Below are positions 20,617 to 22,148 of a DNA stretch of 38,908 nucleotides, in pieces; within the stretch, counting starts at the first letter, position 1; every line of letters starts with the position of its first letter. The DNA lies in the NCBI GenBank assembly GCA_029557535.1, contig JAKQII010000389.1, forward strand, positions 1-38,908, written 5' to 3'. The translations under genes and the position numbers were made by a program. The notes under the pieces are model-generated. The model saw only the letters and a program-made list of their open reading frames with translations. It was not told the DNA's origin and ran no database searches. Source of the stretch: Acidobacteriota bacterium (GTDB lineage Bacteria; Acidobacteriota; Blastocatellia; Pyrinomonadales; Pyrinomonadaceae).

Positions 20617-20701
20617 GCTGAGGTGGCGTAATTGGTAGCCGCGCACGTTTGAGGGGCGTGTGGAGAGATCCGTGCGGGTTCGAGTCCCGCCCTCAGCACC
20701 A
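20617..20701 (+). tRNA. tRNA-Leu, anticodon GAG
   Basis: Acceptor arms GCTGAGG (20617-20623) and CCTCAGC (20691-20697) pair fully; the discriminator A and an encoded CCA follow (20698-20701). The anticodon stem CACGT/GCGTG encloses loop TTGAGGG, giving anticodon GAG, which reads CUC and CUU. A long variable arm, typical of class II tRNA-Leu, precedes the T arm GCGGG-TTCGAGT-CCCGC. It reads + strand 33 bases after secG. Confidence 0.96.
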
Positions 20702-20710
20702 ATTCAAGTA

Positions 20711-20812
20711 GAAAGTGAAAAAGGGGAAAAGTGAAAAAGGGGAAAAGGGGAAAAGTGAAAAAGTGAAAAAGGGGAAAAGTGAAAAAGGGGAAGAGTGACA
20801 AAGGGGAAAAGT
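20711..20812. repeat. Left arm of a large low-complexity inverted repeat
   Basis: Irregular tandem units of the type GTGAAAAAGGGGAAAA, some shortened to GTGAAAAA or GGGGAAAA, with a few point changes near the inner end. The same units occur reversed and complemented at 20869-20941, so the two arms could pair over about 70 bases. There is no coding signal: the antisense reading frames consist almost only of Phe, Pro, Leu, His and Ser. Confidence 0.9.
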
Positions 20813-20842
20813 AACACCTCTTTCAGTCCGGAAAGTTTTCGA

Positions 20843-20873
20843 GCCGTTATGTAATTGTACATAGCGGCTTTTT
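20843..20873 (+). terminator. Intrinsic terminator at the centre of the inverted repeat
   Basis: GCCGTTATGTA (20843-20853), loop ATTG, and TACATAGCGGC (20858-20868) form an 11-bp stem with one T-G pair, followed by five T. It can end transcripts coming from secG and tRNA-Leu. Confidence 0.75.
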
Positions 20874-20941
20874 CACTTTTCCCCTTTTTCACTTTTCCCC
20901 TTTTTCACTTTTCCCCTTTTCCCCTTTTCCCCTTTTTCCCC
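20869..20941. repeat. Right arm of the large low-complexity inverted repeat
   Basis: Units of CACTTTTCCCCTTTTT type, the reverse complement of the left-arm unit, ending 2 bases before the mlaD-like stop codon at 20943. Part of its first T-run doubles as the tail of the central terminator. Confidence 0.9.
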
Positions 20942-20942
20942 G

Positions 20943-22148
20943 TTAAAAGAGCTTGAACTTGATCGTCAGGAACTTCTTCGGATTCTGCCTGAAATCGTAA
21001 AGAAGCTTCGTGCCTTCGCTGGAGAACTGGTTCACGTTCGACATCGTCTGGTTCATATTGTTGTAAAGGGTTTCGTCGGTCACCAGACGCCCGATCGTGC
21101 CTTTTCCGGCGCGAGCGTCGGCAAGGATCGCGTCGAGCTTTTCGGCTGTTGAGCTGAACTTCGACAGCGTATTCTGAACGTCGTCGTACAGCTTATCGTC
21201 CTTCAAAAGTTTCCCGGCGGTTCCGCGGCCTTCGCGTAGGCTTGTCGAGATCTCCTTGAAATCGTCGGCGATCGAGCCGATCTTTCCGACTGAAACACGG
21301 AGATCCGAGATCGCGGCCTTTGTTTCATTGTAAAACGCGTCGTCGGTGACGAATTTTCCCGCTGTTCCTTTGCCTTCGCGAATCTCCTTCGAGATCGCCT
21401 CGAGCTGGGACACGGTCTCCTTCAGACTGTCGTACAGCGCCGGATCGCGGACAAATTTACCGGCGCTTCCGTCTCCCTTGTTCACACTGTCGAGGGTGTT
21501 CTGGAGTTTGAGCATGGTCAGCTTCGCCTCGCCGATCGTCGAGTCAAGGCTTTGGTAGAGCTGATCATTGTTGATGATCTGTCCGAGCGTTCCTTCACCC
21601 TGATTGGCCTTGTTGAGGATCTCGTTCGTCGGTGTCGCGAGTCGATTGATCTGCTGCAGAAGATCGTTTCCGGTCTGCGTCAGCTGATTGATCGAGATCG
21701 CTTCTTTCGATTCAAGAATATCATTCTCTCCAACCGGCTGCCCTTTCTGCGATCCGGGAGAAATATTGATCAACTTGTCGTTGGCAAGGACCGATGTCGA
21801 AACCAATTGTGCCGTCGAATCAGTGCGGATCCTTTCCGTGATAGGCCGGCCGTAAAGGTCGAGGCTGACGGCCATGATCGCCTCGATCTTGAAATCCTCC
21901 GGACTTTCAGGCGGGAGAAGGACCACCTCTTCGACCTTTCCGATGTTGACACCCGCAAGCTGAACCTCGGAACCGGCGCGCAGTCCGTCCGCGGCCGCGA
22001 ATCTCGCCTTGATCCGCAATTTTTTTTCAAACGGATTGAAATCACCGGTCGAGTTCAGTATCAGAAACGCCAGGACCATCAGGCCGAAGAGAACGAATAT
22101 ACCAACGCGAAGTTGGCTCAGGGTCAGGTTCTTCTGGGTTCGTGCCAT
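20943..22148 (-). CDS. mlaD: MlaD-family (MCE domain) lipid-transport protein with repeated C-terminal motif
   Basis: Periplasmic, inner-membrane-anchored substrate-binding subunit of an Mla-type phospholipid transporter. Residues 10-33 form a membrane helix, and about 40-130 is the MCE domain (KARFAAADGLRAGSEVQLAGVNIGK region, first part). Residues 150-380 are helical and carry five copies of a motif of the form G.G(T/S).G…(N)D..(L/F)Y, starting at residues 184, 225, 259, 307 and 348. The spacings are 41, 34, 48 and 41, all differing by sevens. The 401 residues compare with about 180 in E. coli MlaD; longer forms build extended tubes in other MCE systems. Third gene of the mlaE-mlaF-mlaD set. 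Confidence 0.9.
   Translation of the reverse strand: MARTQKNLTLSQLRVGIFVLFGLMVLAFLILNSTGDFNPFEKKLRIKARFAAADGLRAGSEVQLAGVNIGKVEEVVLLPPESPEDFKIEAIMAVSLDLYGRPITERIRTDSTAQLVSTSVLANDKLINISPGSQKGQPVGENDILESKEAISINQLTQTGNDLLQQINRLATPTNEILNKANQGEGTLGQIINNDQLYQSLDSTIGEAKLTMLKLQNTLDSVNKGDGSAGKFVRDPALYDSLKETVSQLEAISKEIREGKGTAGKFVTDDAFYNETKAAISDLRVSVGKIGSIADDFKEISTSLREGRGTAGKLLKDDKLYDDVQNTLSKFSSTAEKLDAILADARAGKGTIGRLVTDETLYNNMNQTMSNVNQFSSEGTKLLYDFRQNPKKFLTIKFKLF

Follow-up and report, generated by a model that had tools for sequence, protein, structure and literature searches.

Heptamer arrays known as short tandemly repeated repetitive sequences (STRR) occupy genome gaps in cyanobacteria and have other units than the arrays considered here. 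G-rich repeats were described by Rehm et al. 2015 (PMC4692102), with the unit GGGAATC in Xanthomonas and GGGGA(C/T)T in Nostoc. These repeats have a 7-nt unit with a preference for four units and can form quadruplexes, and no function was found for them (PMC4692102). Their G strand is found close to stop codons when in sense and ahead of start codons when in antisense. They can overlap stop codons and are rare in divergent gaps. Each Xanthomonas genome has 70-75 inverted pairs in convergent orientation, while few inverted pairs are found in Nostoc (PMC4692102). TAACTGA direct repeats of Beggiatoaceae and cyanobacteria are intergenic heptamer arrays near genes, sometimes lying over stop codons (PMC4679880). 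Unlike the arrays considered here, they are short, have one fixed unit and are mostly located just upstream of start codons, and inverted pairs are not among their features. Borg tandem repeats are scattered, A-biased on the coding strand and fast evolving, according to the part of the source used here (PMC9879509). In that part, their perfect units are longer than ours and often in frame inside genes, and no gene-flush inverted pairs are described. In the open-access literature, we found no description of such arrays in Acidobacteriota.

The window, a stretch of 38,908 nucleotides, comes from a Pyrinomonadaceae genome (4.77-Mb assembly in 404 contigs, with many breaks at arrays). In this window, the gap between a tRNA-Leu(GAG) gene and the convergent mlaD is occupied by two inverted arrays of 8-nt units. 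The features are as follows.

20617..20701, plus strand: tRNA-Leu (anticodon GAG), the left neighbour (ARAGORN)
20710..20811, 102 nt, plus strand: R arm, a purine-rich array of mixed octamers GTGAAAAA / GGGGAAAA (sequence, repeats)
20812..20867, no strand: spacer between the arms (DNA search of the same genome)
20841..20870, plus strand: terminator-like hairpin GAGCCGTTATGTA-ATTG-TACATAGCGGCTT (terminator scan, RNA fold)
20868..20941, 74 nt, minus strand: Y arm, T/C-rich, the R-arm octamer array on the minus strand (sequence, repeats)
20943..22148, minus strand: mlaD, the convergent right neighbour (ORF list, Pfam PF02470)

The two facing arms of about 102 and 73 bases reported in the initial annotation are thus correct in position and length, as is their location between a tRNA and mlaD. 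The right-hand gene encodes MlaD (PF02470, E 9.6e-13), and genes for an ABC ATPase and MlaE adjoin it. Beyond that annotation, each arm is attached to the boundary of its own neighbouring gene. The R arm starts 9 nt from the end of tRNA-Leu with its purine strand directed away from the tRNA, and a single base separates the Y arm, whose purine strand is directed away from mlaD, from the mlaD TAA stop. The best-registered arm pair (20733-20803 and 20868-20938) is 71 nt long, 94% complementary and 64 nt apart. The spacer is single copy in a DNA search of the window's genome. The extreme strand asymmetry that had been proposed holds as far as an A/G-rich arm faces a T/C-rich one; "A/G only" is inexact, since the R arm has a T in every GTGA unit.

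The array strand of the window folds at -135 kcal/mol (z -13.9; 0/200 dinucleotide shuffles equally good), and the reverse strand folds at -127.5 kcal/mol (z -13.6). Because these energies lie far beyond those of shuffled sequences on both strands, a chance inverted pair is excluded. A huge RNA hairpin or a cruciform, both suggested earlier, is plausible in view of this extreme predicted folding. The proposed triplex is weakened: H-DNA calls for a long uninterrupted homopurine mirror repeat, whereas the pure runs here reach at most 23 nt in the R arm and 34 nt in the Y arm, with interruptions by GTGA. A terminator-like hairpin does exist between the arms; it is not at the centre, however, but abuts the Y arm, whose first bases provide its T-tail. 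Taken alone, this site is not significant, with one in the region and an average of 1.3 in shuffles. In an Rfam scan, only the tRNA scored above the gathering cut-off, and the miRNA-type matches below it merely mirror a long hairpin.

The arrays are dispersed throughout the genome. By pattern search, which underlies all genome-wide counts given here, the 20-mer AAAGTGAAAAAGGGGAAAAG has 64 exact copies in the genome versus 0 for the reversed control, and 125 versus 11 when at most one mismatch is allowed. The motif also occurs in five relatives and in named public MAGs, and the public contigs that share the long motif belong to Pyrinomonadaceae and other acidobacterial MAGs; the lack of any copy in relatives, raised earlier as an objection to the feature, is not what is found. 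The other objection, an assembly artefact, draws on the fragmentation into 404 contigs and on the many arrays located at contig ends. However, many arrays lie deep inside contigs with coherent flanks, and separately assembled relatives carry the motif in the same gene-flush placement. We consider an artefact extremely unlikely and largely refuted, with lengths uncertain only for arrays at contig ends. The surroundings of 34 places, picked for containing arrays, were fetched, and 44 further arrays were delimited in them. No tRNA lies beside the arrays at these 34 other loci, so the tRNA association in the window is incidental and a tRNA-linked element was rejected. Among the fetched loci compared, none of the genes flanking arrays with the window's unit at L031-L044 matches a gene beside a G000 array.

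The window's genome contains about 40 or more arrays, and the 44 delimited ones have a median length of 112 nt (~14 units). Of 38 arrays with a known neighbour, 29 have the 5' end of the purine strand no more than 30 nt from a gene or tRNA boundary; the opposite end is that close in 0/32, never nearer than 50 nt when L053 is set aside; these counts were made by hand from a simple home-made gene caller without a ribosome-binding-site model. The arrays thus run away from genes: they are in sense where they follow a stop codon and in antisense where they precede a start. A gap that bears outward arrays on both sides therefore carries an R...Y inverted pair, and array pairs within the same gap of this genome are R..Y. 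Purine-outward polarity holds for 42/48 cases from the window's genome and 28/33 from six relatives, but not for G002 (19/32); segments of one array may count separately in these figures, which makes the associated p-value optimistic. Among gaps of at least 80 nt, arrays occur in 9/35 convergent, 11/155 tandem and 0/51 divergent gaps, and the convergent enrichment over the remaining gaps is significant (p 6e-4). This bias fits termination, promoter avoidance, or both. At L053:7269-7357, an 89-bp array apparently lies within a minus-strand reading frame, its T/C strand being free of stop codons; it may have been inserted into the gene, or the gene may have been called wrongly. Other short tandem units (GAGCAGT-type and CCGACCA-type heptamers) are seen beside arrays at L059:94-203 and L071:13924-14004.

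Like the repeats of Rehm et al., these are tandem arrays of short G-rich units dispersed over gaps, gene-flush and outward, that overlap stop codons and avoid divergent gaps, and inverted R..Y pairs in convergent orientation are present as in Xanthomonas. In contrast, the unit here is 8 nt (GGGGAAAA / GTGAAAAA) rather than GGGNATC or GGGGA(C/T)T, the arrays have a median of about 14 units rather than a preference for four, and the ability to form quadruplexes is not general. Because both the defining unit and the preference for four units are missing, we place the arrays outside the Rehm family, as a variant of a broader kind.

The arrays might also act as G-quadruplex or R-loop elements. Quadruplexes or R-loops formed by the purine-rich RNA or by the non-template strand would then stop RNA polymerase or shield 3' ends, as has been suggested for GGGAATC repeats. 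Twenty-three of 44 arrays are quadruplex-capable if loops may reach 7 nt, as is the complement of the window's Y arm, and Rehm et al. observed that transcripts start or stop more often at GGGAATC-type repeats (PMC4692102). However, the window's R arm fails even a loose quadruplex rule. Relatives also have gene-flush units without G-tracts (AATCCGA, ATTACGA and AAAATCG), so a quadruplex is not the common principle, and we regard such an element as improbable here.

Arrays also reach into coding ends. The array frequently provides the stop codon (GTGA), and several proteins terminate in array-encoded residues, such as ESEKGEK and VKKGEK. Coding sequence runs into arrays and takes its stop from them at L078:90-1178, L083:8460-9248, L069:2992-3279 and L084:9070-9429. 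The array-encoded C-terminal tails are rich in Lys, Gly and Glu (KGKSEKGEK, KVKGKK and EKGKRGKVKKGKSEKG). For the MurG-like and kinase genes, the proteins of relatives stop roughly where the array starts. Arrays thus rewrite protein C-termini, and this invasion of coding ends is what neutral mutational debris could produce. If the arrays were such debris, they would be copied and slip freely, their placement, polarity and convergent bias would reflect tolerance (no promoter being hit, and the purine strand giving TGA stops in all frames while the other strand gives none), and the pair in the window would be functionless. The same reading is favoured by the unrelated functions among the flanking genes. 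We hold this explanation to be possible but short of an even chance, and the relatives speak to it on both sides.

In G016, 49 bp lie between the same tRNA-Leu and mlaD, and this gap holds a plain bidirectional terminator but lacks an array; an ortholog that copes with so little is in keeping with debris. In other relatives, different short arrays (GGGAGAC, AAAATCGA and GGCAGTA) directly follow the mlaD stop, and the GGCAGTA array faces an inverted partner on the other side of the gap. When seven relatives were scanned for tandem repeats, many gene-flush pairs with other units, mostly of 7-9 nt, were seen. In seven relatives, strong folding is found in 54% of the convergent gaps, 27% of the tandem ones and 6% of the divergent ones, ordinary terminators contributing to these values. 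In three genomes, the unit of an arm is shared with its own partner to a greater extent than with arms at other places. For arms of the GGGGAAAA class, the match to the partner is no closer than that to arms from other loci, and order-level co-evolution of arms inside this class was rejected on that ground.

The gap between a murG-like and a murC-like gene is a further case. The two genes are co-directional; murG was assigned by Pfam, and the other gene we take to be murC from its recognisable N-terminus. At L193-L205, each species has its own unit (ATTACGA, AATCCGA, AGTGGTC, AGCTGTT and others), mostly in gene-flush inverted arms, and in G010 one arm lies within the final murG codons. The arms are matched overall (0/20000 permutations, 11 species), with L194 and L203 lacking an arm match (2/11 species). 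The architecture of the gap persists while the sequence of the unit turns over between species. The complete turnover of the unit agrees with debris, whereas arms that stay matched despite it argue against debris, unless template switching or a palindromic seed maintains the match. Template switching at quasi-palindromes is a documented route that extends arm identity, according to the part of the source used here (PMC3820800); for the window's arrays it is a suggestion by analogy.

Some arrays appear to have been copied together with adjacent sequence. A 185-bp segment, 98% identical between L051:9350-9535 and L076:1-185, follows arrays at two unrelated genes and is, judged from its sequence, an example of an array and spacer copied together. 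A spacer is also common to L052 and L064. Shared spacers at unrelated loci would be expected of a mobile unit of the REP, REPIN or MITE type, in which array, spacer and array are moved by a transposase such as the REP-associated Y1. G000 has 10 Y1_Tnp matches above cut-off, and REP-like palindromes lie beside some arrays. The palindrome GTCAGTACCGCCTGCGTCAGCGGGCGG (GTCAGTACCGCC...) was seen beside arrays at L066:15513-15759, L062:9863-10200 and L071:4620-4770, and at L066 it occurs twice, alternating with array pieces. However, eight Y1_Tnp loci have neither an array nor a REP-like palindrome within ~1.5 kb, and the link with the Y1 transposase was rejected. The spacer in the window is single copy, and neither fixed element ends nor target duplications were seen around the arrays. 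Mobility of this type is very unlikely.

A dedicated templated process might instead write or rewrite gene-flush inverted arrays, the outward polarity of the strands being telomere-like. We rate such an array-writing activity as improbable. A telomerase-like reverse-transcriptase origin was rejected, since RVT_1 has no match in the window's genome, which is 98% complete; the enzyme would therefore be of a non-RVT_1 kind. If array writing did take place, the architecture of a gap would stay while its unit is replaced wholesale from species to species.

Our preferred explanation, to which we give about an even chance, is that these are dispersed STR arrays grown by slippage, and that at this site they make up an oversized bidirectional terminator and insulator. 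The arrays would spread by copying between loci, as the shared spacers suggest, and change in length through replication slippage in unit number. They would survive where neither coding sequence nor promoters are harmed, being tolerated up to the ends of genes. The match between arms may be kept by a palindromic seed, by template switching at the hairpin or by selection on the stem. Here, tRNA-Leu and the convergent mlaD each bear one array, giving an inverted pair around what would be an ordinary terminator. RNA from either side would form a ~70 bp hairpin with successive CCCCUUUU blocks as its 3' arm. A hairpin of this length with repeated U-blocks in its 3' arm would be expected to stop converging transcription from both sides, keeping the tRNA-Leu and mlaD transcripts apart. 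Judged from the predicted structure, a terminator role at this convergent site is probable. In favour of the explanation as a whole are the dispersal of the 20-mer, the placement and polarity of the arrays, the convergent bias here and among strongly folding gaps of relatives, the shared spacers, the array-free site in G016 and the fold energies of both strands. Against it are the central hairpin, which by itself does not exceed chance, and the arms of the GGGGAAAA class, which show no preference for their own partner. Termination is not the general role of the arrays, because similar inverted arrays also occur in the co-directional murG|murC gaps of relatives, where a strong terminator is unexpected.

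With these arrays, a still unexplained class of bacterial tandem repeats that lie flush with genes now includes Acidobacteriota. They suggest that what unites the class is its placement, the pairing in inverted orientation and, in most of the genomes examined, outward polarity, and not one quadruplex-forming sequence. Orthologous gaps in which the unit has changed and the pairing of the arms has been kept offer a direct handle on stem selection versus template switching versus copying.
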